Position numbers and translations under genes: made by a program. The notes beneath the pieces were generated by a model. That model did no database searches. It was not told where the DNA came from and was given only the letters and a program-made list of their open reading frames with translations. A DNA stretch of 64,000 nt from contig NZ_JAAIXY010000005.1 in assembly GCF_010894455.1 (NCBI RefSeq), positions 248,001 through 312,000 of the forward strand. The letters run 5' to 3'. The stretch comes from Myxococcus eversor. Its GTDB lineage: Bacteria > Myxococcota > Myxococcia > Myxococcales > Myxococcaceae. Positions 41,472 through 60,498 of the stretch are shown here, in pieces. How positions within the stretch are numbered: position 1 is the stretch's first letter; each line of letters starts with the position of its first letter.

Positions 41472-43283
41472 GTGTCCTTGTCCAGCACGAACACGCGTCT
41501 GAACCCCACACCCGAGCCCGGCACCTCCCCGGGCACGTCCCCCGGTGGCACGTCGCCACAGGTCGAGCGGACGGGCTCCCGGGAAATCACAGGCACCCGC
41601 GAGTCCACCGCCACGCGGCTGACCTCCAACGTCGGGTTGCCCCACGTCGAGGCGACGGGCACGCTCATCGCTCCGCTGGAGGCCGGCGAGCTGCCCAACG
41701 TGGCGGCCATCCGCGGCCTCCGGTTGGACCAGATCCTCCTGCTCACGACGACCGCGCTGGTGGTGGTCATCGTGGGCCTGGTCGCGGCGCTGTCCGTCGC
41801 GTCGACGCAGTCCCAGTTCGAGGAGACCGCCCGCCGCTCCACCGAGCGCATCCAGGAGCAGGCCCGCGAATTGGGGCGGACGGTGGGCCAGACGGTGGCG
41901 CTCACCTCCGTCACCAACCTGCGAGACAACAACTACGCCTTCCTGGAAGGCGTGGCCGGCTCCATCGTCTCCACCAACCCCAACATCCTCCGCGTCCAGA
42001 TTCTCGACCCGGAGGGCCTGGTGATGGCGGACAGCGAGCCGAAGGCCGCGGAAGCCCCCACCGAGGCTGATGCGCCCGAGGCCGCCCCCAGCGGACGCGC
42101 CGCCGAGCAGCGGCTGGTGCAGGCGTTCTACCGGAACCAGGCCGTGTACGAGATTCAGGAGCCCATCGACTACGGCTCCACCAGCGGCAAGGGGCTGGTG
42201 GTCATCAGCTACTCGCTGCGCGCCCTCCAGGAGCAGCTCGAGGTCCTCGAGCGCGACAAGCGCGTCACCGTGAGGGCCAACACCGTGCGCATGCTCGCCC
42301 TGGGGCTGGGCTTCGTGGTGCTGGCGGGCGTGGTCGCCGCGTTCCAGAGCCGAAGAATCACCCGGCCATTGGGTATGCTCACCCACAAGGTGATGCAACT
42401 GGCCGCCGGAGATTTGGGCGCGCGCACCCAGGTGGCCAGCGGCGCCGGCCGCGAGGTGAAGACGCTGGGCGTGGTGTTCAACCACATGGCCGAGCGCATC
42501 AAGGTGCTGCTCGACGACGTGCGCGCCAAGGCCCAGCTCGAGCGCGAGGTGTCGCTGGCGCGCACCGTCCAGGAGACGCTCTTGCCCGGCCGTGACGCCG
42601 TGCAGGTGGGGCCGCTGCGCATCGCCGGCCTCGTCGTCACCGCCGACGCGTGTGGTGGCGACTGGTGGTTCCGCGCGGTGCTGGACGAGCAGCGGGTGGT
42701 CATCGGCATCGGCGACGTGACGGGCCACGGCCTGTCCACCTCGCTGGTGGCCACGAGCGCCACCAGCGGCTTCGCCTCCGCGATGACGCTGCGCGAGCCC
42801 ACCGAGGTCAACGCGCAGATGCTCATCACCGCGCTGAACGTGACGCTGGCCAACGTGGGCCGCGGCGAGCACCAGATGTCCAGCGCCCTGGCCGTCATCG
42901 ACGTGTCCAACGGCCTGGTGGACTATGCGGCGGGCGCGCATCCCAGCCCGCTCGTGTTCAACAAGCACAGCGGGCAGGTGGCCTCGCTGCCCGCGCGCGG
43001 GCCCCTGCTCGGCGCGTCCGTGACGTCGCAGTTCACGTCCCGCCAGGCTCAGCTCAGCCCGGGGGACATCATCGTCTGGTACACCGACGGCATCACCGAG
43101 GCACGGGATGGGACGGGGCGCATGTACGGCACCCAGCGTCTGGCCGCGGCGGTGCAGGCCCACGCCAATCTGTCCGCGGAGGCGCTGCGTGACGCGCTGC
43201 TCGCGGACGCCCGCGCGTACAGCGCGGGCCAGCCCCAGCGCGATGACATCACCGTCGTCGTGGCCGAGTACAGCCCCGCCTGA
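41472..43283 (+). CDS. Membrane-bound PP2C-type (RsbU/SpoIIE) serine phosphatase with HAMP domain
   Basis: A 603-residue signalling phosphatase with a GTG start. A Thr/Pro-rich cytosolic tail (1-80) is followed by transmembrane helix 1 (about 86-108), a 160-residue extracytoplasmic sensor, helix 2 (272-292), a HAMP linker (293-345), and a SpoIIE-type PP2C domain from 380. Metal ligands are visible: Asp397 in ACGGDWW, Asp415 in GIGDVTGHG, WYTDGITEARDG and QRDDITVVV. Such enzymes dephosphorylate STAS-domain proteins in partner-switching systems. An RsbW-like ATPase and a STAS-containing kinase are encoded 6-7 kb downstream, candidate partners. The TPR gene starts 17 bp after this stop. Confidence 0.9.
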   Translation: MSLSSTNTRLNPTPEPGTSPGTSPGGTSPQVERTGSREITGTRESTATRLTSNVGLPHVEATGTLIAPLEAGELPNVAAIRGLRLDQILLLTTTALVVVIVGLVAALSVASTQSQFEETARRSTERIQEQARELGRTVGQTVALTSVTNLRDNNYAFLEGVAGSIVSTNPNILRVQILDPEGLVMADSEPKAAEAPTEADAPEAAPSGRAAEQRLVQAFYRNQAVYEIQEPIDYGSTSGKGLVVISYSLRALQEQLEVLERDKRVTVRANTVRMLALGLGFVVLAGVVAAFQSRRITRPLGMLTHKVMQLAAGDLGARTQVASGAGREVKTLGVVFNHMAERIKVLLDDVRAKAQLEREVSLARTVQETLLPGRDAVQVGPLRIAGLVVTADACGGDWWFRAVLDEQRVVIGIGDVTGHGLSTSLVATSATSGFASAMTLREPTEVNAQMLITALNVTLANVGRGEHQMSSALAVIDVSNGLVDYAAGAHPSPLVFNKHSGQVASLPARGPLLGASVTSQFTSRQAQLSPGDIIVWYTDGITEARDGTGRMYGTQRLAAAVQAHANLSAEALRDALLADARAYSAGQPQRDDITVVVAEYSPA

Positions 43284-43300
43284 CCCTGGACGACACCCGC

Positions 43301-45817
43301 ATGCGCCGCACACCCCACACCCCCATGCGACGCCTCGTCCCGGCGCTCGCCCTGCTGGCCTCGCTGGCCAGCCCTCCCGCCCTGGCGCAGTACCGCCCTC
43401 CACCCATGTCCGAGTCGCAGCGGCTGGTGAAGGAGGGCGAGACGGCCCAGGTGTCCGCCAGCGCCGCGAGCGCCTCCGGTGACAAGAAGGAAGCGGAGGA
43501 GAAGTACCGCAAGGCGCTGGCCCTCTTCGAGCAGGCCCTGGCCGCCGAGCCGGGCTCCGTCGCCGCCGCCGCGGGCGTGGGCTCCGCCGCCAACGCGCTC
43601 CAGGACTGGGCGCGCACCGTGGACAAGCTCAAGCCCGTGCAGGCGGCAAACCCGTCCGAGCTGTCGCTCTCGTACCCGCTGGGCGTGGCCCTCTTCAAGC
43701 TGCGCCGCTTCCCGGAGGGCGTGCCGCTGCTGGAGCAGGTGGCTGGCGCGGACCAGGCCGAGCACCTCATCGTCCACTACTACCTGGCCAGCTACTACCT
43801 CTTCGCCCAGCAGGGCGACGCGGCGGTGACGCGGTTGCAGAAGTATCTGGCCATGCGTCCCGCGAAGCTCTCCACCAACGACTTCCAGGTCCACGAACTG
43901 CTGGGCCGCGCCCATGTGCTGCGCCGCGACGCGGTGGCCGCGCGCGCGTCCTTCACCCAGGCGCAGGCGGGCCGGCCGGAGTCGGCCACGGTGCAACTGG
44001 GGCTCGCCAACGTGCTGGAGCTGGAGGGAAAGCCCGGCGAGGCGCGGACGCTGCTCGAGGGCGTCACCACGCGCTTCCCGCAGGCGGCCGAGCCGAAGGA
44101 GAAGCTGGCCCGGCTGTACCTCGCCTCGGCCGAGCTGCCCCGCGCGGAGGCGCAGGCGGTGGCCATGGTGAAGGTGGGCGCGACGCCCGCAGCGTACCTG
44201 CTGCTGGGCGACGTGCGGCTCGCGCAGAAGCAGGCCCCCGCCGCCGAGGAGGCCTACCGCAAGGTGCTGGAGCTTCAGCCCGGCCTGGTGCTGGGGCAGA
44301 TGGCGGTGGGCAAGGCGCTCCAGGCGCAGGGACGTCACGAGGAGGCCATCCAGTTCCTGGAGGCCGCGGTGCGCTCGGGCGCCAGCAGCGTGGAGCTGTG
44401 GGCGTCGCTCGGCTCCGTCAACCGCCGCGCCGGCCGCTACCAGCGCGCGGTGGAGGTGCACCGGCGCGTCGTGGAGATGGTGCCCCGTCAGGCCCTGGGC
44501 TGGATGCTCCTGGGCGCGGACCACTTCGCCACCGGCCAGTGGGACCAGGCCATCGAGGACTACGGCAACGCGCTCCAGGTGGAGCCCGCGCACGCTGGCG
44601 CCAAGCAGTGGCTGGCCCGCGCGCTCGCGCACCGTGCCCGCGACAGGGGCGGGGCGGGGCGGGCGGATGACGCCGTTCGTGACTTGCGCCGGGCCTATGA
44701 CCTGGACCGGAGCGCGCTCATGGCCCGCCGGCTGACGGCGGCGCTGATGGAGACGCGTGTCTACGCGGACGCGCGCAAGGTGATGGAGCAGGGCGCCACG
44801 CTCCCCGGCGCGACGTGGCGGGAGCAGCTGCTCCTGGGCTACGCGCGGCTGGGCGCGGGGGATGCGCAGGCGGCGCTGGAGGCCTTCGGCCTCGCGGGCA
44901 AGCAGACGGAGGAGCCGGACCAGCAGGCCGAGGCCTCCGTGGGCGCCGCGCTCGCCGAGGTGGAGTTGGGCCAGGTGGACGCCGCCGTGCAGCGGCTCAC
45001 CGAGGTCGGCCCGTCGCGCACGGCCGCGAGCGTGGCGCAGGCCAACCTGCCGCGCGTGCTGGTGCGCCGCGCGCTGGCCCGCCTCGAAGCAGGGGACGTC
45101 GAGGGCGCCGACCGCGACCTGGACGCCGTGGACAAGCTGGGCACCGGCAAGCGCGCGGACCTGACGAAGCTGGCCCTCTTCGCTCGCGGACTGTCGCGCG
45201 CGGAGGCCGGTCGCCACGCGGAGGCGAGCGCCGCGCTGAAGAAGGCGCTCACCCCGGCGCAGCCCTGGGCGTGGCCCAACACCCGCGCCCTGGCGGACGC
45301 CTTCGTCCTCTACAAGAAGGGGCAGGTGGCCGCCTCGCGCAAGCAGCTGACGGCCGCGGCCAAGAAGCCCATGCCCGGCCAGCCCAAGTGGCTCGCGTCC
45401 CTGACGGGCGCGCTTCATCGGCGCGAGGCCTCGCTGGCCTACGCCTCCGGAAACATGAAGGGCGCGGAGAAGGCCCTCAAGGCCGCGCTCACCGCCGAGC
45501 CCGACGACGCGCTGCTCCAGCACAACCAGGCCTGCGTCGACTGGCGCAAGGGCAAGGCGTCCGAGGCCCTGGCCACGTGGCGCCGCCTGGAGTCCTCGGT
45601 GTCCGTCGCCGCGCTCAACCTGGGCATCGACGCCCAGGAGCGACGCCACGAGCCCGCCGAGGCCGTGGACGCCTGGCGCCGTTACCTCGCCTCCGGCCCC
45701 GGCCCCCGCCAGGCCCAGGTGCGCGAGTGGAAGGAACGCCTGCAGAGCCTCCATGGCCTCGCCGAGCCCTCGGGCGCGCCGTCGGCCGGAGCCACCGCGG
45801 AGGAGACCACCCCATGA
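43301..45817 (+). CDS. Secreted tetratricopeptide-repeat protein
   Basis: An 838-residue protein with a signal peptide (MRRLVPALALLASLASPPALA from the second Met at 43325, or a few residues longer from ATG 43301). Nearly the whole mature chain is made of helical pairs with the TPR pattern (for example YRKALALFEQALAAEPGSVAAA, YRKVLELQPGLVLGQMAVG, DYGNALQVEPAHAGAK), about 15-20 repeats. It is presumably a periplasmic scaffold. It lies between the phosphatase (17 bp upstream) and a PhnD-like binding protein whose start overlaps its stop (ATGA), so the three form one transcription unit and the TPR protein may connect ligand binding to the phosphatase sensor. Confidence 0.85.
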   Translation: MRRTPHTPMRRLVPALALLASLASPPALAQYRPPPMSESQRLVKEGETAQVSASAASASGDKKEAEEKYRKALALFEQALAAEPGSVAAAAGVGSAANALQDWARTVDKLKPVQAANPSELSLSYPLGVALFKLRRFPEGVPLLEQVAGADQAEHLIVHYYLASYYLFAQQGDAAVTRLQKYLAMRPAKLSTNDFQVHELLGRAHVLRRDAVAARASFTQAQAGRPESATVQLGLANVLELEGKPGEARTLLEGVTTRFPQAAEPKEKLARLYLASAELPRAEAQAVAMVKVGATPAAYLLLGDVRLAQKQAPAAEEAYRKVLELQPGLVLGQMAVGKALQAQGRHEEAIQFLEAAVRSGASSVELWASLGSVNRRAGRYQRAVEVHRRVVEMVPRQALGWMLLGADHFATGQWDQAIEDYGNALQVEPAHAGAKQWLARALAHRARDRGGAGRADDAVRDLRRAYDLDRSALMARRLTAALMETRVYADARKVMEQGATLPGATWREQLLLGYARLGAGDAQAALEAFGLAGKQTEEPDQQAEASVGAALAEVELGQVDAAVQRLTEVGPSRTAASVAQANLPRVLVRRALARLEAGDVEGADRDLDAVDKLGTGKRADLTKLALFARGLSRAEAGRHAEASAALKKALTPAQPWAWPNTRALADAFVLYKKGQVAASRKQLTAAAKKPMPGQPKWLASLTGALHRREASLAYASGNMKGAEKALKAALTAEPDDALLQHNQACVDWRKGKASEALATWRRLESSVSVAALNLGIDAQERRHEPAEAVDAWRRYLASGPGPRQAQVREWKERLQSLHGLAEPSGAPSAGATAEETTP

Positions 45818-46728
45818 AGACGCTCCGCTTGCTGCTGGCCGGCCTCGCGCTGGCCCTCTGTGTCGTCACCCCCGCCGCCGCGGCCCCGAAGAAGGCCACG
45901 CTGGGCGTCTTCCTGGCCACGACGTTGAGCGACGGCCAGGAGCGCTTCCAGTACGCGGAGGCCCTGGCCGCGAAGCTGTCCGAGGCGATGGACCGCCCCA
46001 TCGCCGCCAAGAGCTTCGGCCGCTATGAGGACTTCGCGCGGGCCATCTCCGACGGCGGGGTGGACTTCGCCGTGGTGGAGGGGTGGGCCGCCGTACAGCT
46101 CGGCTCCAAGGCCACTCCGCTGGCCTGGGCGTCCCGTCCCGGGGAGTCCCAACAGCGCTGGGCCATCGTCTCCACTCACAAAGGCGTGGTGAAGGACCTC
46201 GCCGGCAAGCGCCTGGCCCTGGTGAAGGGCGCCGGCCCCGCCGACCCCAAGTTCGTCACCCACGCCGTGCTCGGGGGAGACTTGGACGCGCAGCGCCACT
46301 TCAAGCTCACCCCCGTCCCCAACGTGGAGTCCGCCCTGAAGATGCTGGAGGCCAAGGGCGCCGAGGCGGCCCTGGTGCCCATGTCCCATGTCCCCAAGGA
46401 CAAGGACCTGCGCGTCCTCTTCCGCAGCTCCCGCCTGCCGGGCGCCGTCCTGGTGGACCTGCGCAACCACAAGGAGTCGCTGGACTCCTCGCTGTCCTCC
46501 GTGGGTGCTGTTGCCCCCTTCGAAGCCTTCGTCCGCATCCAGGGCAAGGACTTCGAGGATTTCCGGCGGCTCGTCACCCAGGGCCCCCCGCGCCGCCAGC
46601 CCGTCTTCGCCGAGGCGCCCGAGTTGCGCGTGGACGCCGAGGTCCTGGTCCGAGCCGAGGAGCTGGGACCCTCGCTGCCTTCATTCGGCGGAGACCTCGC
46701 CGTGGCCGCCGAACAGCCCGACGACTGA
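45814..46728 (+). CDS. PhnD-like periplasmic substrate-binding protein
   Basis: A 304-residue protein with a signal peptide (MKTLRLLLAGLALALCVVTP, then AAAA). The mature part matches the PhnD/SsuA2-like periplasmic binding fold: ATLGVFLATTLSDGQERFQY, YEDFARAISDGGVDFAVVEGW, the hinge LAGKRLALVKGAGPADPKF and VESALKMLEAKGAEAALVPM. No ABC permease or ATPase gene is adjacent, so it probably serves as a sensory binding protein. Its ATG overlaps the TPR gene stop, and the phosphatase is the first gene of the unit. The ligand is unknown. Confidence 0.83.
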   Translation: MKTLRLLLAGLALALCVVTPAAAAPKKATLGVFLATTLSDGQERFQYAEALAAKLSEAMDRPIAAKSFGRYEDFARAISDGGVDFAVVEGWAAVQLGSKATPLAWASRPGESQQRWAIVSTHKGVVKDLAGKRLALVKGAGPADPKFVTHAVLGGDLDAQRHFKLTPVPNVESALKMLEAKGAEAALVPMSHVPKDKDLRVLFRSSRLPGAVLVDLRNHKESLDSSLSSVGAVAPFEAFVRIQGKDFEDFRRLVTQGPPRRQPVFAEAPELRVDAEVLVRAEELGPSLPSFGGDLAVAAEQPDD

Positions 46729-46795: not shown

Positions 46796-46950
46796 TTGGC
46801 CCCGCTGGGCCGCTGGGGTAGCTTGTTTTCTTACGGCGCGAGCGTGCAGGTGAGCGAATTCGTCCAAAAGAACGAGTGCCCTGGCGTCGCACCGGCCAAC
46901 AGGGGCGTACAGGACCGCGGGGGTTCCTCCCATTCGCGGATGTGAGAAAG

Positions 46951-49557
46951 ATGCATTCCAAAGTGTCTGCTGATCCGCTGCGAGGTGCGGTGGGAGCTCA
47001 CGCAGGGCGCCAGGGTATCCGCGCCTACATCGCGATGTCCGTCCTCTTCAGCGCGCTGGCCCTGGCCTACCCCACGGTGGTCCAGGCCCAGGATTCCGGC
47101 GCGGCGGGTGAGGCGCCAGCGAAGGTGAAGCGCAAGAAGCGCGTCGTCCCGCCCGGGACGAAGGTCCCTGGGGCCACGAAGACGCCCGCGACGAAGCCCC
47201 CGCGTACGGCGAAGAAGCCCCCGAAGACGCGCAAGAACGGCAAGCCGGTGGAGCCGGCGCCCGTCGAGCCGGAGATTCCCGTCCTGGGCGCCGGCACCGA
47301 GACGGATGATCCCACCGAGGCCGTGACGGCGGAGCCGCCCGTTCCGGTGGCCCCCGCGCCCACGGTGGAGACCCACCCGGCTGGTCCTCCTTCGCACGCC
47401 CCGGTGGCGAGCCCCTCCCTGGACCCCGCGCTCACCGCGGACCCCTTGAGCACGCCGCCCGCGACGGTGAGCCAGAAGCCCGCGCCCAGCGACAACGTCC
47501 CCATCTCCGCGCCCTTCGCCCAGCCCACCACGGACCGGCCGATGCCGCCTCCGTCCGGCCTGGCGAGCCTGCCCGGTGAGGACCCGCTGGGGGGCGCGGA
47601 CGCCCTGGAGGAGTCGGTCAACCGCGTGCTGAGCGAGGCGGTGGTGACGACGGCCTCCAAGCGCAACCAGCGCATCGCGGACGTGCCCCTGACGGTGTCG
47701 TGGATTCCGGCGGAGGAGTTGGAGGGCACGGGCCAGTTCACGCTGTGCGAGGCCATCCAGTACTTCCCCGGCATGGAGTGCCGCCGTGGGTCCATGCGCA
47801 AGGCGGCGGTGAGCGCGCGTGGCCTGGGCTCCAACTACCTGTCCAACCGCCTGCTGTTGCTCAAGGACGGCCGGCCGCTGACGGACCCGTGGACGGGTCA
47901 GTTCTACGCGGACGAGACGACGCCGCTCGTCAACCTCAAGCAGGTGGAGGTCATCCGGGGCCCGGGCTCGTCGCTGTACGGCTCCAACGCCTTCAGCGGC
48001 GTCATCAACATCATCGAGCGCCAGCCGGCGGACCTCATCGCCGCGGGACGCAACGTGGGCGCCGAGGCGCGCATCCTCGCGGGCCAGGACCAGACGTGGC
48101 GTCTGCACGGCAACGTGGCGGGACGCGGCGGCCCCGTGGAGGCGCTGCTGGGCTACTACGGCTATGGCTCGGACGGGCCGCAGCTCTTCAGTGACCCCGC
48201 CAGGGGCGTGGTGGACGAGAACCAGGACTCGATGGTGCACCAGGTGAACGGCAAGGTGCGCGTGGGGCCGCTGGCGCTGGACGCGGACTTCACGGACGCG
48301 ACGATTGGCCGCCCGGGTGGCTCGCACACGCAGATCTCCACCGTGGGCAACTGCGGCCGCTGCCACTACACGCCGGACGACGAGGAGTCCGTCCAGAACT
48401 TCAACGCCTCCGCGCAGGTGGATCAGCAGGTGACGGACAACCTGCGCCTGTTCGGTCAGGCGTACGGCTTCTTCAAGCGCCGCGACGTGGTGATGGAGAA
48501 CGCCTTCGGTGGCGACCCCACGCGCGTTCTGGGCAAGCGGCGCCGGCTGGGCGGCGAGGTTCGCGCGCTGTACTCGGCGGGCTCGTTGTCGGTGACGTTC
48601 GGCGGCGACTTGAAGCTGGACAACGTCAACGTGCCCAACGTGCTGCCGGGGCTGACGCTGGACGACACGAAGCAGACCATCCTCGGCGGCTTCGTGGACG
48701 CGGAGTACCGCCTGACGGAGCGCCTGGTGCTGAGCGGCGGCGCCCGGTATGACCGCTACCAGATTCCCGAGGCGGTCTGGCGCGAGCGCACCGACCAGCT
48801 CTCCCCGCGCGCCAGCATCGTCTTCCACGCGGTGCCGGAGTTGCTCACGCTGCGCACCAACTACGGCCGCGCCTTCCGCGCGCCCACCCTGGCGGAGCTG
48901 GCCATCAACCAGCAGATGTACGCCTCCACGCTGGTGGGAAACGCCAACCTTCGCGCGGAGACGCTGGACACGTTCGAGGGCTCCGTGGACTTCTGGCCCT
49001 TCGACCGGCGCGTGCGCCTGACGGCGACGGGCTTCTACAACGTGGCCAAGAACTTCATCAATCAGGAGCTCGTCTTCGGCTCGGTGTCCCAGTTCCGCAA
49101 CATGGGCGACGCGCGCATCGCCGGCCTGGAGCTGGAGGCGGCGGCGCAGATTCCGTCCATCAACTCGTCGTTCGACGTGGCCTACCAGCTCCTCGACGCG
49201 AAGAACGTGCCCTTCGACGACAGCCCGGAGTCGCCGCTGGACTACGCGCCCACGCACCGCATCTACGCGCGCGGCCGCACCAACATCGGCAAGGTGGCCT
49301 TCGTGGAGCTGTACGCGCTCTTCGTCGGGCCGCGCTTCGACCCGGGCTTCCAGGTGGACGAGTCGACGGGTCTGCCCACCTCTCGCGTGCAACTGCCCAG
49401 CTACCTGACGGCCAGCGCGCGGGTGGGCTTCAACGTCTACGACGGCATCTCCGTGTCGTTCCTCGGCTCCAACCTCTTCAACGCGGCCTACGAGGAGTCT
49501 CACGGCTTCCCCGCGCCGCCTCAATCCTTCTTCAGTGAAGTCAAGGTACGCTATTAG
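46951..49557 (+). CDS. TonB-dependent outer-membrane receptor with Lys/Pro-rich extension
   Basis: An 868-residue receptor. A signal ends near residue 47 (YPTVVQAQ). Residues 48-215 are a low-complexity Lys-, Pro- and Thr-rich segment (KRKKRVVPPGTK, KTPATKPPRTAKKPPKTR), unusual before a plug. The plug (about 225-365) has VVTTASKRNQRIADVPLTV, ARGLGSNYLSNRLLLLKDGR and EVIRGPGSSLYGSNAFSGVINI. A 22-stranded barrel follows, ending in the aromatic FFSEVKVRY. A CxxCH motif (residues 468-472) and two plug Cys residues are notable. The ATG at 46951 follows a weak GAGAAAG; upstream in-frame sequence lacks signal character. A Fur-like box upstream suggests ferric-siderophore uptake. The next gene starts 9 bp after the stop. 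Confidence 0.9.
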   Translation: MHSKVSADPLRGAVGAHAGRQGIRAYIAMSVLFSALALAYPTVVQAQDSGAAGEAPAKVKRKKRVVPPGTKVPGATKTPATKPPRTAKKPPKTRKNGKPVEPAPVEPEIPVLGAGTETDDPTEAVTAEPPVPVAPAPTVETHPAGPPSHAPVASPSLDPALTADPLSTPPATVSQKPAPSDNVPISAPFAQPTTDRPMPPPSGLASLPGEDPLGGADALEESVNRVLSEAVVTTASKRNQRIADVPLTVSWIPAEELEGTGQFTLCEAIQYFPGMECRRGSMRKAAVSARGLGSNYLSNRLLLLKDGRPLTDPWTGQFYADETTPLVNLKQVEVIRGPGSSLYGSNAFSGVINIIERQPADLIAAGRNVGAEARILAGQDQTWRLHGNVAGRGGPVEALLGYYGYGSDGPQLFSDPARGVVDENQDSMVHQVNGKVRVGPLALDADFTDATIGRPGGSHTQISTVGNCGRCHYTPDDEESVQNFNASAQVDQQVTDNLRLFGQAYGFFKRRDVVMENAFGGDPTRVLGKRRRLGGEVRALYSAGSLSVTFGGDLKLDNVNVPNVLPGLTLDDTKQTILGGFVDAEYRLTERLVLSGGARYDRYQIPEAVWRERTDQLSPRASIVFHAVPELLTLRTNYGRAFRAPTLAELAINQQMYASTLVGNANLRAETLDTFEGSVDFWPFDRRVRLTATGFYNVAKNFINQELVFGSVSQFRNMGDARIAGLELEAAAQIPSINSSFDVAYQLLDAKNVPFDDSPESPLDYAPTHRIYARGRTNIGKVAFVELYALFVGPRFDPGFQVDESTGLPTSRVQLPSYLTASARVGFNVYDGISVSFLGSNLFNAAYEESHGFPAPPQSFFSEVKVRY

Positions 49558-49566
49558 GCACCGCGT

Positions 49567-50406
49567 TTGAGTACCGCTCCTCACCTGGAGGCCGGGGGCC
49601 TCCTGCTGATTGCAGATGCTTCCCTGCCCGCGGCCTCGCTCGAGCAGGCGGTGCCGCTGCTGGCGCAGGGTGAGGTGGGCGGCAAGGGCGCGCTGGTGTT
49701 GTTCGACGGCGTGCTCAAGCCCGAGCACGCGCAGTGGCTGCGGCGAGAGCCGCCAGCCCTGCTCCTGGCCACGCGCGAGCGCGACGGTGGGCCTTCCATG
49801 TGGGAGGTCCGGCTGTTGGGCTCGCTGTGGAAGCAGGGCTCGCTCCTGCCGGACCAGGCGGAGGTGAAGCGCCATCCGCTGCGCCGCGTGGCGGACATCC
49901 ACGCGGCGGCCAAGGCGGCGTCGGTGGCGGTGGACGACGCGGAGGGCAGCCGCGTGGCGGCCGGGCTGGTGGCGGACGTGGTGCATGAAATCGCCGCCAA
50001 CGCGCTCCTGGATGCGCCGGTGGATGCGCGGGGCGAGCCTCGCTACGCGCACCGGCGCACCGAGGTGCGTGAAGTGGAGCCGGAGGACGCCTGCGAGCTG
50101 ACGTTCGCGGTGGAGGACGGCCGGATGTGGCTGGAAGTGGCGGACCGCTTCGGCGGCCTGCGGCCGGGCTCGTTCGCCCGGGCGCTGGAGGGGTGGGGCA
50201 AACGCGTGAAGGTGGATGCGTCTGGCGGAGGGGCGGGTCTTGGATTGCGTCGCATCCTCGAGCACTGCGACACGGTGGCGGTCCGGGTGACCGCTGGCCG
50301 GGAGTCGCGAGTCGTGTGCGTGGTGGACCTGGGAGACGCGCGCCGCCGCGCGACCCAGCCCAAGTCACTGATGTTCTGTCTGCATGAGGTCAGGGCCGGT
50401 GGATAG
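49567..50406 (+). CDS. GHKL ATPase-domain protein, RsbW-like
   Basis: A 279-residue cytosolic protein with a TTG start, 9 bp after the receptor gene. The first 115 residues are an alpha/beta domain of unknown type. The C-terminal half has GHKL ATPase motifs: N box VHEIAANALLDAP (Glu141, Asn145), G1-like VADRFGGL (Asp193) and G2 SGGGAGLGLRRIL (219-231). No dimerisation/phosphoacceptor His box is present, which fits anti-sigma-factor serine kinases (RsbW/SpoIIAB) better than sensor kinases. Its 3' end overlaps the start of a kinase gene whose product begins with a STAS-like domain, the usual substrate of RsbW-type kinases. Co-expression of the two is very likely. Confidence 0.75.
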   Translation: MSTAPHLEAGGLLLIADASLPAASLEQAVPLLAQGEVGGKGALVLFDGVLKPEHAQWLRREPPALLLATRERDGGPSMWEVRLLGSLWKQGSLLPDQAEVKRHPLRRVADIHAAAKAASVAVDDAEGSRVAAGLVADVVHEIAANALLDAPVDARGEPRYAHRRTEVREVEPEDACELTFAVEDGRMWLEVADRFGGLRPGSFARALEGWGKRVKVDASGGGAGLGLRRILEHCDTVAVRVTAGRESRVVCVVDLGDARRRATQPKSLMFCLHEVRAGG

Positions 50407-53400
50407 CCAGGGTTCCAACGCCATCATCAGCCGGCTCCGCGTGGGTACCATCACCCACGTCCGGATTGCCGGCGTCATCGACGAGACCTTCCCGTTGACG
50501 TCGACGAACCCGGAGCTCAGTGGGCTCCTCGTCGTCGACCTCGGCCGGGTGGAGCGCATCAGCTCCTTCGGGGTCCGCCGGTGGATTGAATTCGCCGCGA
50601 AGCTGCCTCCGGGCGCGCTGGGGCTGTACGTCGTCCATGCGCCCCCCGTCGTGGTGGATCAGCTCAACATGGTGGAGGGCTTCGCGGGAGTCGCGCGCGT
50701 GCTCTCCGTGCTGGCGCCGTACACGTGTCGCACCTGCAACGAAGACCGGATGCGGGTGGTGAACCTGGTGGACGAAGCCCAGGTCATCGCCGAGGAGCGC
50801 GCGCCCGAGCACACCTGCCCCGTCTGCTCCAACCCGCTGGAGTTCGCGGACCTGCCGGGCGAGTTCTTCGACTACGCGCGCCGTCAGCAGTTCGGCACCG
50901 TGGACCCGGTGGTGATGCGCTACCTGCGCGCGAGCATGCCGACGGAGCAGTCGGAGCTGCCGCAGCACCTGAAAATCGTCCAGGACGACGTCACGTTCAT
51001 CTCGCTGGCGAGCACGCTCAAGGGCGACCTCAACGTGCGCCGGCTCGCGTCCGGGTTGGAGGGGCGCGTCGCGTTCGACTTCAGCCACGTCAGGACGGTG
51101 GAGCCGGAGGCGCTGCCCAAGCTGGAGCAGGTGCTGGACACCGCGGCGCAGGCCGCGCAGGTGGTGCTGTGCCGCGTGCCGCCGCCGGCGCTGGCCGTGC
51201 TGGCGCGCTCGTCCAAGCTGATGCCGGGGCGGCTGGCCACGCTGTGGCTGCCGTGCGAGTGCCGCAACTGCGGCCAGGTGAGCCACCAGCGCATCCAGGC
51301 CCACGAGTACCTGGCGCAGCTTCGCGCGCACCAGACGAGCATCACCATCGAGTGCCCCATCTGCGGCGGCAGCGCCCAGGTGCCGCACATGCCGCAGCTC
51401 CAGGGGTTCCTGGCGCGCGTGCAGCTCACGGACCGGCCGCTGGACGACATCGAGGGGCTGGAGCCGCGCGCCCTCAGTCAGTACCTGTTCGGGTCCACCA
51501 ACGTGGACCCGCAGGCGAACAAGGGCTCGCCCACCGACATCTCCAACTCGCTGGGCAGCACCAAGCTCAACATCATCCGACGGCTGGGCCAGGGCGGCAT
51601 GGCCGAGGTCTTCCTCGCCAAGCAGGTGGGCGTGAAGGGCTTCGAGAAGTTCGTGGTGATGAAGAAGATTCTCCCGCAGTTCGCGCAGAACCCCGAGTTC
51701 GTGGACATGCTGTTCGCGGAGGCTCGCGCCAACGCGCGCCTCACGCATCCCAACGTCGTGCAGACCTTCGACGTGGGCGTGTCCGACGGGGTCGCGTACA
51801 TCCTGATGGAGTACGTGCGCGGGCCGGACATGAAGCGGCTGGTGAACGAGCTGCGCCGCAAGGGGCTCGCGCTGCCGCTGGAGCACGCGCTGCGCATCGT
51901 CGCGGAGGTGGCCGCGGGTCTGCACTACGCGCACGCGTACGTGGACCCGGCGGGCACGCCGCACCCCGTGGTGCACCGCGACGTCAGCCCGCACAACGTC
52001 CTCATCTCCCTGGACGGCGCCATCAAGCTGAGTGACTTCGGCATCGCCAAGGTGGCGGGCGAGGAGAACACCCAGGCGGGCGTGCTGAAGGGGAAGATTT
52101 CGTACATCTCCCCGGAGGCCGCGTCGGGCCGCACGCTGGACGCGCGCAACGATGTCTTCGCGCTCGGCGTCGTCCTCTTCGAGCTGCTCACCGGACAGCT
52201 TCCGTTCCGCAGGGACCACGACGCGGCCACGCTCAACGCCATCGTCCGCGAGCCCGCTCCCGTCCCCTCGCAGCTTCGTCCGCAGATTCCGCAGGACGTC
52301 TCCGACCTCATCCTCCGCGCCCTCGTGAAGGACCCGGCGCGCCGCACGCCGTCCGCCGCGGCGATGCGCGAGGAGATTGAAGCGGTGATGGCGCACCACC
52401 GCCTCAACTCGTCCCCGGCGGCGGTGGCCCAGTTCTTCAAGGACACGCTGGGAGACCGGCTGGTGGAGTACACGCCTTCGACAGCGTCGGGAACGGGCAG
52501 CCATCCCAAGCCCGTCCCCAGCGGCACGGGCAGTGGCAGCGTCGGCAGCGGGGACATGGTGGCCCCCGTCGATGCCAGGACGCCAAACCGGGGCACGGGC
52601 AGTGGCCCGAAGCCGACCACGGCGGGCAGTGGCAACATCCCGCGTCCGACGACGGGCACGGGCAGCGGCAACGTGGCCGCGCGGCCCGCGACGCCGCCTC
52701 CCGTGGCGACCCGCCCCGCGACGCCTCCGCCCGTGGCGCCCAGGCCCGCGACACCTCCTCCCGTGGCGACCCGCCCCGCGACGCCGCCTCCCGTGGCGAT
52801 CCGGCCTCCGCCTCCTCCGCCCACCATGACTCCGCTGCCGATGCTCCCGGCGCTGGATGCGGGGGACCGGACCGAGGTGGTGCTGTTGCAGGGGAGCGCG
52901 CAGTTGCCTCCTCCCGCGCAGACCCAGCCCGCTCCAGCGCCGCGTCCGTCGCAGCCGGGCCACACCGCGGTGCCCGTGCCTCAGCGTCCGTCCTCCACCG
53001 CGCTGCCCGCCTCGGCGCCCCGTCCCGCTCCCGCGCCCCGGCCGTCCTCGCCAGGGCACCAGAGCCCCGTGCCCGTCGCGCGACCCGTTCCTCCCGCGCC
53101 CGCGCAGGGAGAGCCCACCGCGTCCGAGTCCGGGAAGGGCACGTGGAAGTGGGCGGCCCTGGGTGGCGGTCTCTTGCTGGTGGTGGCTGTCGTGGCGGTG
53201 GTGATGCTGCGCGGTCCCGGCTCCGTGTTCCTCAATTTGGAGGAGGGCGAGCACGTGTACGTCGGTGGCGTGCGGCTGGAGCCCGGCTCGAAGTCGCTGC
53301 CGGCGCCGCCCACCGGGCCGATGCTCATCGCCACGGCGTTGAACGGGAGGCTGCGGCGGTTCGGCACCACGCAGCTTCGCGAGGACATCGACGTGCGGAC

Positions 53401-53644
53401 GCTGGCGGATGCGATGCCCCAGCCCGGGACACGAGGGCTGCTGAGCGTGACGAGCGGCGAGTCCGGGTGCCAGGTCCAGGTGGACGGCGCACCGCTGCCC
53501 AACCGCACGCCGGTGACGAAGGCCTCCATCGAGGCTGGCAGGGAGCTGGAGGTGGTGGTGAGCTGTCCTGGCGCCGCGAGCAAGCAGTGGGTGCTGGCGG
53601 TGCCCGGCCAGGAGATTGTCGTGACGGCTCGGCAACAAGACTGA
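50384..53644 (+). CDS. Ser/Thr protein kinase with tandem STAS-like/zinc-ribbon units, transmembrane helix and PEGA-type C-terminus
   Basis: A 1086-residue protein. STAS-like domain 1 (20-112; VVDLGRVERISSFGVRRW, Ser60/61 at the switch position) is followed by zinc ribbon 1 (C115, C118, C145, C148). STAS-like domain 2 (203-285; FDFSHVRTVEPEAL) is followed by zinc ribbon 2 (C291/293, C296, C324, C327). The Hanks-type kinase domain (395-670) has LGQGGMAEVF, a catalytic Lys in VVMKKI, HRDVSPHN (531-538) and DFG (551-553). A Gly/Ser/Pro linker with decapeptide repeats (768-807), a transmembrane helix (921-943) and PEGA-like domains (1018-1084) complete it. The ATG overlaps the ATPase gene by 23 bp. 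The kinase faces the cytoplasm and the PEGA end the periplasm. Confidence 0.9.
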   Translation: MRSGPVDSQGSNAIISRLRVGTITHVRIAGVIDETFPLTSTNPELSGLLVVDLGRVERISSFGVRRWIEFAAKLPPGALGLYVVHAPPVVVDQLNMVEGFAGVARVLSVLAPYTCRTCNEDRMRVVNLVDEAQVIAEERAPEHTCPVCSNPLEFADLPGEFFDYARRQQFGTVDPVVMRYLRASMPTEQSELPQHLKIVQDDVTFISLASTLKGDLNVRRLASGLEGRVAFDFSHVRTVEPEALPKLEQVLDTAAQAAQVVLCRVPPPALAVLARSSKLMPGRLATLWLPCECRNCGQVSHQRIQAHEYLAQLRAHQTSITIECPICGGSAQVPHMPQLQGFLARVQLTDRPLDDIEGLEPRALSQYLFGSTNVDPQANKGSPTDISNSLGSTKLNIIRRLGQGGMAEVFLAKQVGVKGFEKFVVMKKILPQFAQNPEFVDMLFAEARANARLTHPNVVQTFDVGVSDGVAYILMEYVRGPDMKRLVNELRRKGLALPLEHALRIVAEVAAGLHYAHAYVDPAGTPHPVVHRDVSPHNVLISLDGAIKLSDFGIAKVAGEENTQAGVLKGKISYISPEAASGRTLDARNDVFALGVVLFELLTGQLPFRRDHDAATLNAIVREPAPVPSQLRPQIPQDVSDLILRALVKDPARRTPSAAAMREEIEAVMAHHRLNSSPAAVAQFFKDTLGDRLVEYTPSTASGTGSHPKPVPSGTGSGSVGSGDMVAPVDARTPNRGTGSGPKPTTAGSGNIPRPTTGTGSGNVAARPATPPPVATRPATPPPVAPRPATPPPVATRPATPPPVAIRPPPPPPTMTPLPMLPALDAGDRTEVVLLQGSAQLPPPAQTQPAPAPRPSQPGHTAVPVPQRPSSTALPASAPRPAPAPRPSSPGHQSPVPVARPVPPAPAQGEPTASESGKGTWKWAALGGGLLLVVAVVAVVMLRGPGSVFLNLEEGEHVYVGGVRLEPGSKSLPAPPTGPMLIATALNGRLRRFGTTQLREDIDVRTLADAMPQPGTRGLLSVTSGESGCQVQVDGAPLPNRTPVTKASIEAGRELEVVVSCPGAASKQWVLAVPGQEIVVTARQQD
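52685..52804 (+). repeat. 30-bp in-frame tandem repeat (RPATPPPVA decapeptides)
   Basis: Four near-identical 30-bp units encode RPATPPPVA plus one variable residue (T, P, T, I) in the linker between the kinase domain and the membrane helix. The unit number is likely to vary between strains by slippage. Pro-rich repeats of this kind act as extended spacers. Confidence 0.8.
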
Positions 53645-53700: not shown

Positions 53701-56034
53701 ATGAAGGGCTGGACGTTCTTCCCTCACCTCGTCGTGCGGACGACAGGTTTCCCATTCGACTGGTTGGAGCGGTTGGGGTGCCCGGAGTCGGCGACGTGGG
53801 CACGTCGGCTCGAGGCGGAGCGACGTGGGCTGGATGCGCTGCGTGCCCAGGGGCCGCGCGTGCGTCGCCCTCCGCGAGAGCTGCTGGCCGCGCTCAAGGC
53901 GGGGCGTCCCGTCAACACCGAGGGGATGGAGTCTCCGGAGCGCTTCGCGGAATGGAATGTCCGCGCCGCGGCGGCCCAGGAGGCGGAGGCCGGTTTCGCC
54001 GAGGCGATGGAGCGTGAGCTGGCGGCGGTGGAGTCCCAGCTCGCGACGCTGTGCCGCGAGCCGCGCTTCCTGGAGGCGGTCGCCAGCTCCAGTCCGCCGG
54101 TGGCCAAGGACCTGCTCGCGGGGCGCGAGGGCTCCCGGTTGCGTCGGCAGCTCGCCAGCTATCTGCAGCGGCTGTGCGCGAAGAACGAGACGATGGGCTT
54201 CTTCGGTCCCATCAACTACGGCCGCGTGGACCCGGACGCGCCCACGGGCGTGACGCTGAACTGGTCCGGCCCCGAGACGCTGGTGGGGCGCAACACCTTC
54301 GCGGCCTCGTGGCTGGTGCAGGGGTTGGTGAGGGCCATCGCGTTCGACCCGGAGATCGCCTCGTGGCTGGTGCCGCGCCGCAAGGCCTTCGCGGAGATGC
54401 CCGCGCGCAAGGCGGGCCCCACGCCGGAGAGCGCGGAGGAGCTGCTGCCCCGGTTGGTGGAGCTGGCGGATGGGACGCGCACGCTGGCGGCCCTGGCGTC
54501 GTCCCTGGGCGTGGCGCCTGGCCTCGCCCGCGAGGCGCTGAGGCTGGGCTGTGACAAGTCGCTGCTCACGCACCAGCTCGAGGTACCCTCCGCGGTGCAC
54601 CACCCCGTGGACGACCTGGCGGAGCGTGTCGCAGCGCTGCCGAGCGCGGGTGCGCGGCGTCATGTCGAGGGCCTGAGCGCGCTGTTGGAGCTGATGGGGC
54701 GCTATGGCGCGGCGGACGCGAGCGGGAAGATGGCGCTCCAGGACGCCTTCGCGCGGCGGGCGAAGGAGCAGTGGGGCGTGGCGCCTTCGACGGAGCGCGG
54801 GCCCGCGTCCGAGTCCCACAACTTCTACCAGGACCGGCTCGCGCTGCGAGAGGAGTGCGGCGGGGACCTGCGGCTCGAGGTGGGCGGCGAGCGGGCGCGG
54901 GAGCTGGGGACCCGCATGGAGCCGGCGCTGGCGTGGATGGCCGAGGCGGCCTGGCGCACGCGAGACGCGGCGCGCGCCGCGGTGGCGCAGAAGGTCGGCT
55001 CACGCACGGTGCCCTTCTGGAAGGTGGCCGCCGCCAGCGCGGACCTGCCGTTGCCGCTGGACACGTCGATGGCGGAGCTGCTCGCGCAGTCCATTCCGGA
55101 CGCGGCGGCGCGCGTTGTCGAGCTGGGTGACGTGGTGCCTCCCGCGTGGGATTCGGCGCGGGCCCTGCCGCTCGTCACGTCGGTGGACCTGCTCGTCGGG
55201 GCGGCGGACGTGGAGGCCTGGGGACGAGGCGACTACACGCTGGTGATGGGGGACATCCACGACACCGCGCTGGTGTGGGGCTGGGCGCTCCAGTTCCATC
55301 CTTCGCGAGGGAAGGTGGAGAGCGCCATGGTGCGTGCGCTCGGCGCCCTGCCGCGCGCGATGCCCCTGGTGACGGTGCTGCCCTCGCGTCGCACGGGGCT
55401 GTTGCCCTCGGAGTTTCCCGGACCCGTGGTGGAGCTGGGCGGTGTCAGCTCCCGCGCCTCCGCGTGGCGGATTCCGCTGGATGACCTGTTCGTCGAAAGC
55501 GACGGCAAGAGCGCGCGGCTGGTGTCGAAGCGGCTCGGCTCCGAGGTGTGCCTCTACAACGGCGAACTGGAGAGCACGGTGCATACGGCGTTCTCGCTTC
55601 CGCGCATCCGCCCGCTGCGGGTGTCGCTGGGGGAGCACACGCCTCGAGTCACGCTCGGCGGGGTGGTGGTGCAGCGCGAGCAGTGGCGGCTGGATGCGGC
55701 GGCGCGAGAGGCGCTGCTGGCTTGCAAGGACGACCGCGCGAGGCTGCGCGTCGCGGTGGGCCTGTGGGAGGCGCGCGGCCTTCCGCCGTGTGTCTTCGCG
55801 AAGTTCAAGGGCGAGCGAAAGCCCGTGCTGGTGGACGTGCGCAGCCCGCCGTTGCTGCGCGTCTTCCTCAACCTGCTGGAGCAGAAGGAGGAGGTCCTCC
55901 TCTCGGAGATGTTGCCCGGGCCGGAGCAGCTCTGGCTCCGTGGACCGGGAGGTCGCCACACGGTGGAGCTGCGCTGCACGCTGTTGTGGGGCGGCCCCCG
56001 GGCCGCCATGCCTCCCGTCGCGGAGGAGGCGTGA
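53701..56034 (+). CDS. Short LanB-like protein (lantibiotic dehydratase N-terminal family), copy 1
   Basis: A 777-residue protein of the LanB glutamylation-domain family (Lant_dehydr_N). Family landmarks: N-terminal VVRTTGFPFDWLERLG (11-26), the core QRLCAKNETMGFFGPINYG (156-174) and the C-terminal IRPLRVSLGEHTPRVTLGG region followed by KPVLVDVRSPPLLRVFLNLL and EMLPGPEQLWL. Full-length LanBs (about 1000 residues) use glutamyl-tRNA to glutamylate Ser/Thr and then eliminate it with a C-terminal domain; that domain is absent here. Short LanBs can act with a separate eliminase or as peptide-aminoacyl-tRNA ligases. It starts 56 bp after the kinase gene and overlaps the next gene by 1 bp. Confidence 0.82.
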   Translation: MKGWTFFPHLVVRTTGFPFDWLERLGCPESATWARRLEAERRGLDALRAQGPRVRRPPRELLAALKAGRPVNTEGMESPERFAEWNVRAAAAQEAEAGFAEAMERELAAVESQLATLCREPRFLEAVASSSPPVAKDLLAGREGSRLRRQLASYLQRLCAKNETMGFFGPINYGRVDPDAPTGVTLNWSGPETLVGRNTFAASWLVQGLVRAIAFDPEIASWLVPRRKAFAEMPARKAGPTPESAEELLPRLVELADGTRTLAALASSLGVAPGLAREALRLGCDKSLLTHQLEVPSAVHHPVDDLAERVAALPSAGARRHVEGLSALLELMGRYGAADASGKMALQDAFARRAKEQWGVAPSTERGPASESHNFYQDRLALREECGGDLRLEVGGERARELGTRMEPALAWMAEAAWRTRDAARAAVAQKVGSRTVPFWKVAAASADLPLPLDTSMAELLAQSIPDAAARVVELGDVVPPAWDSARALPLVTSVDLLVGAADVEAWGRGDYTLVMGDIHDTALVWGWALQFHPSRGKVESAMVRALGALPRAMPLVTVLPSRRTGLLPSEFPGPVVELGGVSSRASAWRIPLDDLFVESDGKSARLVSKRLGSEVCLYNGELESTVHTAFSLPRIRPLRVSLGEHTPRVTLGGVVVQREQWRLDAAAREALLACKDDRARLRVAVGLWEARGLPPCVFAKFKGERKPVLVDVRSPPLLRVFLNLLEQKEEVLLSEMLPGPEQLWLRGPGGRHTVELRCTLLWGGPRAAMPPVAEEA

Positions 56035-57701
56035 TGAAGTGGCTGGTGCTGCCTCCACACCGGGACATCACGCTCGTGCCCGAGGTCCCCGAGGGGTGGC
56101 ACCTGTTGGACCTGGCGAGGGACTTCGGCCGCCGGGTCTTCTCCTCCGAGTCGGTGGAGGCGGAGGCCCTGGCTCGCGAGTCGTCGCCCCCGTCGCCCCA
56201 GACGATGCGGGAGCTGCTCCTGCTGCGAGTCGCGCAGGGGCTTCGTGACAGGGGGCCGATTCCGGAGCTTCGCGCCCTGGGCGCGGTGCTGACGGCGATT
56301 TCTGGCCCGCCCAACGGCGTCCACCTGCGTCTGGATGACGTGGAGCTGGAGTCCGGCACGACGGAGCGGAGTGGGGATGTCCAGCGCGTGGTGGGGCTGC
56401 CCGCGCCGTACTCGGATGACGTGGCGGGTGTCCTCGCGCGCTTCGAGGAGGCGGAGTGCGTCCGCGTGTGGCTGGAGCGTGACCTTCAGCTCCCCGCCGC
56501 CGTGTCACTCGCGCAGGCGTGTCCAGCGCATGTGGCTTTGGAAGTCGCCGGGCCCTTCGCCTGGACGCATCGCGAGGTGCTGGCGCGGATGCCCGCGTTC
56601 CGGCGTGCGGCGTTCCCGGAGCAGGTGCCCCCGCTGCGCTGGCGCGTGGCTCCGCTGCGGGGTGATTCCGGTTCGAGCGACCTCGTGTGGGTCGCTGATG
56701 CGCTGGGACTGGAGGTCGTCGCTCCGTATCCGGGGGGAGATGAGCACGACTGGGTGGAGTTCGATGCTCCTTCCGCCGACGGCCCGGAACCGGGGACGAG
56801 GCGACGGGAAGACTGGCTCGGTGCCTGCTCGTTGGACGAGGTGCGCGCGTACACCGGAGGCGCACGCTGGGCGGGCCACGTGTCGCTCGGGTCGCTCCTG
56901 GCGGCGGACGTGCTCGCGGAGAGCGGCTGTCACACGGTGGTGGTGGGGTTCTGCGGTATCGAGAACGGTCGGGTGGTGGACCCTGAGCGCCGCTTCATCT
57001 CGCTGGAGTCGCTCGTCCAGGGCTATCAACGGCTGAAGGCCGCGGGTGTGCGGGTCGTCGCGGAGTGGTGGGTGGGAGCGCCGGGCGTGGATGAGGCGTC
57101 CCTGGATGTCACGCTGGCCGCGCTGGAGGGCCCGCGCTTCTTCGACCACCTCGCGGGAGTGCGCCCGTTCCACGCGTCGGTGGAGCGCATCGCCCGAGTC
57201 CGCGACATGGCGCGCTGGTGGGGACAGCCTGGAGATCCTCCGGCGGACCGGGACTTGTCCCGCAGTCGCCCCATCGAAAAGCCGGGGACGATTGAGGGGA
57301 CGCGCCTGCCCGCCGTGCTCACCTCGTTGGCGAGCCGCCTGCTGGGTCGCGCGCCGCTCAGTCCGGGCCGTGTCGCCGCGGCGTTCCTATACGGGCCCGT
57401 GGCTCCTGTGCCTTCGATAGCGCCTGCGCCAGACGCCGCCGCGCTCATCCGACTGGATGTGGACTGCGCGGTGGTGCGACTGGCGGCCTCGCTCGATGGC
57501 GCCCCGAAGCCCACGTGGTACGCGGCGAACCTGCGCACCGGGGTCGTGCTCGCGATGGATGCGCGCCTGGCTCCCGTGCTGTCCCGGCTGACAGCGCCTG
57601 CTTCGGCGTCGGCCGCGCTGGGCGCGGTGCCGGAGGCGCAGCGCGCGAAGGTGGTGGAGATGCTGGTGACGAAGTCCATCCTGGAGAGGACGCACGGATG
57701 A
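56034..57701 (+). CDS. Radical-SAM-like barrel protein lacking the iron-sulphur cysteines
   Basis: A 555-residue protein encoded between the two LanB-like genes, overlapping both (TGATG and ATGA). The middle and C-terminal parts follow the strand-helix pattern of radical SAM/B12-type barrels: YPGGDEHDWVEF, SLGSLLAADVLAESGCHTVVVGF, SLESLVQGYQRLKAAGVRVVAEWWVGAPGVDEASLDVTLAAL. The CxxxCxxC motif for the 4Fe-4S cluster is absent, and its few Cys residues are scattered. If the fold is right, it is either a non-catalytic scaffold or uses different chemistry. The first 120 residues are helical and could bind a peptide leader. The fold assignment is tentative; the translational coupling is clear. Confidence 0.6.
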   Translation: MKWLVLPPHRDITLVPEVPEGWHLLDLARDFGRRVFSSESVEAEALARESSPPSPQTMRELLLLRVAQGLRDRGPIPELRALGAVLTAISGPPNGVHLRLDDVELESGTTERSGDVQRVVGLPAPYSDDVAGVLARFEEAECVRVWLERDLQLPAAVSLAQACPAHVALEVAGPFAWTHREVLARMPAFRRAAFPEQVPPLRWRVAPLRGDSGSSDLVWVADALGLEVVAPYPGGDEHDWVEFDAPSADGPEPGTRRREDWLGACSLDEVRAYTGGARWAGHVSLGSLLAADVLAESGCHTVVVGFCGIENGRVVDPERRFISLESLVQGYQRLKAAGVRVVAEWWVGAPGVDEASLDVTLAALEGPRFFDHLAGVRPFHASVERIARVRDMARWWGQPGDPPADRDLSRSRPIEKPGTIEGTRLPAVLTSLASRLLGRAPLSPGRVAAAFLYGPVAPVPSIAPAPDAAALIRLDVDCAVVRLAASLDGAPKPTWYAANLRTGVVLAMDARLAPVLSRLTAPASASAALGAVPEAQRAKVVEMLVTKSILERTHG

Positions 57702-60001: not shown

Positions 60002-60063
60002 CATCCGAGGCGGGTCCGCGAACAGAATGGGGCAAAGTCACTGCCAGTCCCTCTGGAGAGCCC

Positions 60064-60498
60064 ATGTCTGGTGAGAACACCGTCGTCCCTGAGACTCGGA
60101 AGCTGAAGCGCCCGGTGGAGGAGATTCGCGCGGAGCTGATGGGCAACGCGGACGTGAAGGAGCAGGCGCGCCTCCTCCAGATTTCCGTCGAGGCCTACGT
60201 CGAGAAGATTCTCGACTACGCCCAGCACCCGCAGAAGCAGATGCCGCTGGAAATCACCCTCGACGGGGACCTCAAGGCCAAGGACCCCAGCGCCCCCACC
60301 GTGGCGGAGATCCAAGGCCACCTGGACAAGCTCATCAGCGGCGAGGTCATCATCAGCCGTGCGCAGCAGCGTGACGGCTTCAGCGCGGGGAAGGGTGATG
60401 AGCGCTACAAGGCCGCGCTCGCCTCGGACGAGGTGCTCAAGGGCGCCCCCGAATCCCGCGCCACCACCCCTGACCCCAAGGGCCCTCCGAAGGAGTGA
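60064..60498 (+). CDS. Small hydrophilic protein after the LanB operon, candidate substrate or accessory
   Basis: A 144-residue charged protein without signal peptide, starting 62 bp after the second LanB gene with GGAGAG as ribosome binding site. The N-terminal 90 residues are helical (RPVEEIRAELMGNADVKEQA, LLQISVEAYVEKILDYAQ). The last 25 residues are Pro/Gly-rich and probably disordered (KGAPESRATTPDPKGPPKE), with no Cys at all. It is the nearest small protein to the modification genes, so it is a candidate scaffold or leader-bearing substrate, but no precursor signature (such as a GG cleavage site or Ser/Thr/Cys-rich core) is visible. I do not recognise the family. Confidence 0.72.
   Translation: MSGENTVVPETRKLKRPVEEIRAELMGNADVKEQARLLQISVEAYVEKILDYAQHPQKQMPLEITLDGDLKAKDPSAPTVAEIQGHLDKLISGEVIISRAQQRDGFSAGKGDERYKAALASDEVLKGAPESRATTPDPKGPPKE

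Follow-up and report, generated by a model that had tools for sequence, protein, structure and literature searches.

A putative partner-switch circuit with its switch domain built into a Hanks kinase in Myxococcus eversor and other myxobacteria

Introduction

Partner switches are best known as regulators of sigma factors. Those of Bacillus, RsbU-RsbW-RsbV and SpoIIE-SpoIIAB-SpoIIAA, each consist of a PPM phosphatase, a GHKL serine kinase and a STAS protein with an S-x-G phosphorylation motif, all encoded together. In the RsbRST stressosome, too, a GHKL kinase and a PPM phosphatase accompany several STAS domains, and RsbT-RsbU pairs are made up of a GHKL kinase and a SpoIIE-type phosphatase. 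Hanks kinases number about a hundred or more in myxobacteria, where matching phosphatases are few. In SypE-SypA of Vibrio fischeri and RbaVW of Rhodobacter, which resemble partner switches, no known sigma factor is the output (PMC8256260). A first-pass annotation of the DNA considered here, made from its letters alone, took STAS domains to be normally separate proteins; this is only partly true, since a 2010 paper noted fusions of COG1366 STAS proteins to eukaryotic-like kinases in Sorangium cellulosum (PMC2887360). The same paper counts a single SpoIIE-like phosphatase in M. xanthus, mxan4562, which combines SpoIIE with HAMP, and finds very little co-organisation of kinases and phosphatases; the parts of it consulted describe neither a ribbon nor a phosphosite analysis, nor a STAS kinase of M. 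xanthus or its ATPase.

Here we describe a locus in a 64,000-nucleotide stretch of the Myxococcus eversor genome (the window) that resembles the Bacillus partner switches in having a PPM phosphatase, a GHKL-type kinase and an S-x-G STAS domain encoded together. Unlike those switches, it has its switch STAS within a Hanks kinase and, apparently as an insert in that STAS, a Cys4 ribbon; a second STAS without a phosphosite is present, the ATPase has an additional N-terminal domain and no sigma factor gene is near. SypE-SypA and RbaVW differ from it in that their STAS proteins stand alone and no Hanks kinase is involved, and the stressosome differs in having neither a Hanks kinase fusion nor a ribbon. 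The literature that we searched, whose coverage leaves out most subscription journals, did not describe the STAS unit with its ribbon, the ATPase or the whole module, and for STAS with a zinc ribbon or with a Hanks kinase only the Sorangium remark was found. As Pfam hardly detects the STAS-ribbon unit and misses the window's ATPase altogether, such a module is easily overlooked in annotations.

Results and Discussion

The gene row and its phosphatase

Six genes in the same direction encode a membrane phosphatase, a TPR protein, a periplasmic binding protein, a TonB receptor, an ATPase and the STAS kinase (Table 1). The TPR gene overlaps that of the binding protein by 4 nt and the TonB and ATPase genes are 9 nt apart; the size of the gap upstream of the TonB gene hinges on the uncertain start of that gene. 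The six genes are probably one operon. The phosphatase, whose gene lies approximately 9 kb upstream of the kinase gene, has hydrophobic segments at residues 82-116 and 269-294, a HAMP domain at 293-343 and a SpoIIE/PPM domain at 405-600 with the metal-binding motifs GDVTGHG and DDIT. It is by far the strongest SpoIIE match of the 11.4 Mb genome (E 3e-40, against 8e-7 for the next). The genome has one ATPase of this family, one STAS-ribbon protein and one strong SpoIIE gene, and all three are in this single cluster. Outer membrane vesicles of M. xanthus contain the TonB receptor MXAN_4559 (PMC3222651, PMC4158809); since this fits the gene order, the counterpart locus in that species is probably MXAN_4557-4562, a numbering that we infer from it.

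Table 1. Positions in the window of the six genes and of the parts of the STAS kinase (residue numbers are those of the kinase protein)
Feature	Position	Strand	Basis
Membrane sensor phosphatase, HAMP-SpoIIE	41472..43283	+	Pfam SpoIIE E 1.3e-39 (above cut-off), HAMP 2.1e-8
TPR-repeat protein	43301..45817	+	Pfam TPR; conserved synteny; starts 17 nt past phosphatase gene
Phosphonate-type periplasmic binding protein (PhnD-like)	45814..46728	+	Phosphonate-bd 5.6e-11; N-terminal hydrophobic segment; synteny
TonB-dependent outer membrane receptor, start uncertain	46876..49557	+	Pfam barrel 4.2e-41, plug 1.2e-17; synteny
SpoIIAB/RsbW-fold ATPase	49567..50406	+	AlphaFold2 pLDDT 93.1; overlaps Hanks kinase gene by 23 nt
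Hanks kinase with two STAS/ribbon units (whole protein)	50384..53644	+	Open reading frame, 1086 aa
Unit 1 STAS core, residues ~11-114	50414..50725	+	STAS structures Z ~10; profile against PDB STAS 4hyl E 4e-5
Ser61, predicted phospho-Ser position of STAS switch (ISSFGV)	50564..50566	+	Conservation; aligns with S-x-G serine of STAS proteins
Unit 1 Cys4 ribbon C115/C118/C145/C148, residues ~113-160	50720..50863	+	Alignments and AlphaFold2 model
C-terminal helix completing STAS unit 1, residues 175-184	50906..50935	+	AlphaFold2 model and structure comparison
Unit 2 STAS core, residues ~195-292	50966..51259	+	STAS_2 E 6e-4; stressosome STAS Z 8.2; hhalign to unit 1
Unit 2 Cys4 ribbon C293/C296/C324/C327, residues ~291-333	51254..51382	+	Alignments and AlphaFold2 model
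Hanks Ser/Thr kinase catalytic domain, residues 397-661	51572..52366	+	Pfam Pkinase E 7.4e-41
Predicted membrane helix, residues 920-952	53141..53239	+	Hydropathy; sole hydrophobic segment of the kinase protein
PEGA-like stretch, residues 1018-1062	53435..53569	+	Pfam 14.7 bits, below cut-off 20.8

Downstream of the kinase gene, positions 53701-60498 are possibly a RiPP cluster: LanB-like proteins (Lant_dehydr_N) are encoded at 53701-56034 and 57575-60001, with a protein of no Pfam match at 56031-57701 and a small open reading frame near 60070-60498. The first LanB gene and the 56031 open reading frame are conserved at that place in Myxococcus, Citreicoccus and Archangium loci.

Two STAS units with apparently inserted ribbons precede the kinase domain

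The STAS kinase consists of two STAS/ribbon units, a Hanks kinase domain in which the glycine loop, HRD and DFG are all found, a low-complexity linker, one membrane helix and a C-terminal domain. Its nearest named match is a Myxococcus qinghaiensis locus, to which the N-terminal region is 98% identical. The first-pass annotation had placed two STAS-like domains ahead of a Hanks kinase with a membrane helix, and this layout held; its PEGA-like periplasmic part stood as a resemblance of the C-terminus but falls below the Pfam cut-off.

The AlphaFold2 model of the N-terminal 374 residues, built on a 73-sequence alignment, has a pLDDT of 93.2 and a pTM of 0.87. The best PDB matches of unit 1 include TM1442 (1vc1, Z 10.6), RsbV of the RsbV/RsbW complex (6m36, 10.1), SpoIIAA of the SpoIIAB complex (1til, 10.0) and a Haliangium anti-sigma antagonist (10.1), and unit 2 matches a stressosome STAS (7b0u, Z 8.2), so the modelled fold is that of RsbV/SpoIIAA and not the one unrelated to STAS that, for residues 20-112 and 203-285, would have refuted the first-pass annotation. 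Run on the full 374-residue model, Foldseek found no match with E under 0.001, as two domains with inserts dilute the match, yet it gave a probability of 1.00 for several STAS chains; for the whole model the STAS assignment is carried by VIA-align and by the Foldseek probability column. Independently of structure, the unit 1 profile matched 4hyl and the prestin STAS (both E 4e-5), and that of unit 2 matched STAS chains weakly (best E 0.03). The STAS_2 match in the protein itself (residues 224-275) scores 20.4 bits, under the Pfam cut-off of 29.2, and individual relatives reach E 3e-6 for unit 1 and 5.9e-7 for unit 2. The two units are homologous to each other (hhalign probability 98.8, E 5e-17) and their profiles cross-match; they are therefore duplicates.

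Both Cys4 clusters are invariant in 16 diverse double units. The first-pass annotation was right that both are there, but it had put each after its STAS domain. Structural alignments of unit 1 run from residue ~10 to ~180 (ending at 179-185) with only ~105 residues paired, and on the strength of these ranges and of the modelled secondary structure the ribbon appears to be inserted inside the STAS fold, between the last strand and the C-terminal helix. The likely role of the ribbons is to bind zinc and make the fold more rigid. Zinc-finger matches that the A3 profile returned from the PDB were put down to C-x2-C composition and set aside.

The structure comparison also bears on a stressosome-like scaffold, in which the double STAS units would assemble, unit 1 would play the part of RsbR/RsbS and the ATPase, in that of RsbT, would be freed on phosphorylation and activate the SpoIIE phosphatase, the Hanks kinase being one client. 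The best matches of unit 2 include a stressosome STAS (7b0u), unit 1 matches RsbS, and the pairing of a GHKL kinase with a SpoIIE-type phosphatase is that of RsbT-RsbU as well. Nevertheless, we think this scaffold very unlikely, as the phosphatase has a membrane/HAMP sensor of its own and no RsbR-type sensory input domain was found in the kinase protein.

Unit 1 keeps the switch serine and unit 2 lacks it

Ser61 and Gly63 of unit 1 (RISSFGV) are invariant in 16 diverse rows of the alignment and in 73 rows, although the latter figure is partly circular in that loci L051-L106 were fetched by a genome scan pattern containing the motif. As a control for circularity we considered relatives found by protein or profile only; in these the serine is kept in nearly all unit 1 copies and stand-alone single units, the exceptions being L152 and L157. 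Judged from these alignments, Ser61 appears nearly invariant across the Myxococcota. An Asp before the STAS switch serine is common but not universal; here the position is occupied by Ser60 and in relatives by Ser, Thr or Asn, a departure from typical STAS proteins that weighs against a partner switch. In 4hyl, too, it is Ser.

The (D)S-x-G pattern is found in unit 1 (Ser61-x-Gly63) and is missing from unit 2, which has Pro241. In both MAFFT and hhalign, VERISSFGV and VRTVEPEAL align without a gap, which sets Glu240 opposite Ser60 and Pro241 opposite Ser61, and in relatives the phosphosite column of unit 2 is mostly Pro or Ala with no conserved acid. The first-pass annotation had read unit 1 as phosphorylatable and unit 2, with Glu at the equivalent place, as a locked phospho-mimic. 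The conserved Ser61-x-Gly63 agrees with the first reading, and so does the contrast between one unit that looks switchable and one that does not. A phospho-mimic is not supported, given the register, with Pro and not Glu at the phospho-Ser position, and the lack of a conserved acid, the neighbouring Glu included. Unit 2 is better read, from its sequence, as a switch that lost its phosphosite.

The ATPase has the fold of SpoIIAB and RsbW

No Pfam family matched the ATPase of the window at E 0.1, and HATPase_c was matched weakly in six of 26 relatives. Its model is closest in the PDB to SpoIIAB (Z 12.7), UsfX (11.3) and RsbW (11.2), the range for these three proteins being 9.4-12.7 as against 6.5 or less for histidine kinases, and Foldseek returned 1til at E 3e-6. 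The ATP-binding boxes are conserved in 80 sequences (N box E141/N145, G1 D193, G2 G222/G224/G226). The adjacent ATPase, to which the first-pass annotation had looked for phosphorylation of the switch, thus has the SpoIIAB/RsbW fold and, by analogy, is the predicted kinase of Ser61.

As the fold is nearest to true anti-sigma factors, the ATPase could still bind a distant sigma factor. In that case it would have an anti-sigma role towards a sigma factor whose gene lies elsewhere, with the STAS kinase as anti-anti-sigma factor; the Hanks domain would be an added input, with the ATPase or the STAS units as its possible substrates, and not the output. The genome offers 51 matches to sigma-70 region 2, but none lies within ~65 kb of the locus on the contig and none was noticed in the STAS-ribbon loci that we read, a reading that was unsystematic. 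Moreover, the ATPase differs from plain RsbW in an extra N-terminal part that is receiver-like in relatives. Overall, we consider a hidden sigma factor unlikely.

A working model

We favor the possibility, which we hold to be moderately probable, that the locus encodes all the parts of a partner switch, with a Hanks kinase carrying the switch domain. Unit 1 would take the role of RsbV/SpoIIAA. By analogy with RsbW/SpoIIAB, the ATPase would bind unit 1 and phosphorylate Ser61, and the membrane phosphatase, in the role of RsbU, would strip the phosphate from it, presumably on sensing a periplasmic signal to which the TonB receptor and the binding protein of the operon may be linked. Binding of the ATPase to the N-terminal arm, or its release, would then determine how active the Hanks kinase is or how it assembles, and this kinase would stand as output in the sigma factor's place. 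Given that no sigma factor gene is near and that the kinase itself contains the switch, it would be the natural output. Unit 2, its phosphosite lost, would most likely be a structural or dimerising STAS.

If this model is correct, two Ser/Thr signalling systems are joined, a sigma-factor switch apparently having been reused for kinase control. The locus would offer a concrete, testable upstream circuit for one myxobacterial Hanks kinase, and a lone SpoIIE-like phosphatase would gain a likely substrate.

Conservation and distribution

The order of TPR protein, binding protein, TonB receptor, ATPase and kinase recurs in Myxococcus, Pyxidicoccus, Citreicoccus, Corallococcus, Archangium and Hyalangium. 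Among the 57 genomes of the order that have both the phosphatase and the STAS kinase, the two are at most 12 kb apart on one contig in 52 and on different contigs in the remaining five. In two congeners (G096 and G111) kinase, ATPase and phosphatase are all absent together. Across all loci, an ATPase lies in the same fetched stretch as the STAS-ribbon gene in 101 of 135. In a distant family member (L075/L032) the genes for phosphatase, ATPase and kinase lie next to one another, the Sorangium row runs ATPase, phosphatase, double-unit protein and then a kinase with C-terminal units, and SpoIIE, ATPase and STAS genes are clustered in other distant families too. In the Sorangium loci, therefore, the kinase precedes the units, whereas in the window the units precede the kinase. 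A direct hint that ATPase and unit interact comes from three genomes in which the ATPase is fused to one STAS-ribbon unit (L043:5855-7702, L080:8636-10081 and L159:2900-4513); these fusions also carry a receiver-like domain.

Profile matches were found in 77 of 195 genomes of the phylum. A scan of ~85,000 species returned records labelled Myxococcota, myxobacteria or 'Deltaproteobacteria' and two others, one a MAG matched to a genome of the same phylum and one labelled 'Comamonas sp.', 83% identical and probably a mislabelled Myxococcus; since the scan used one short motif pattern, absence outside the phylum is not proven by it. On balance, we see about even chances that these loci represent a phylum-wide myxobacterial class in which a SpoIIE phosphatase, a SpoIIAB-type kinase and a ribbon STAS gate a Hanks kinase directly, with paired active and silent STAS domains and no sigma factor.

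STAS kinase paralogs that have no ATPase neighbour (L044, L046, L047 and L069) count against the partner-switch circuit and are relevant to another explanation, in which the STAS/ribbon units are now mere docking or dimerisation modules, the linkage to ATPase and SpoIIE is historical, and Ser61 is kept for the fold or for Hanks autophosphorylation. In its favor, orphan paralogs in Archangium and in one further genome, G073, retain Ser61 with no linked ATPase. Indeed, in G073-G075 a STAS kinase is present, and both an ATPase of the family and a strong SpoIIE gene are missing; as Ser61 is intact in L047, the one locus read from this group, it may have another role or another kinase there. However, the ATPase motifs are intact in the 80 sequences, and the three fusions and the linkage conserved across the phylum also speak against docking alone, to which we assign the smallest probability of the readings considered. 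Many members, for their part, have a double unit and no recognisable kinase, which also counts against the circuit that we favor; the kinase therefore cannot be the output in all of them.

Several individual loci show further variation. The orphan STAS kinase of G073, at L047, has HCD in place of HRD and retains the catalytic Asp. Double STAS-ribbon proteins that lack a kinase domain and apparently contain a membrane segment are encoded at L033:2-2326 and L034:8324-10555, beside kinases that bear the same units at their C-terminal side. Finally, in a single groundwater myxobacterial MAG (G085, L036-L042) the STAS-ribbon matches number eight and the ATPases of the family four; the matches include stand-alone single units, and some of the ATPases are in very long reading frames.
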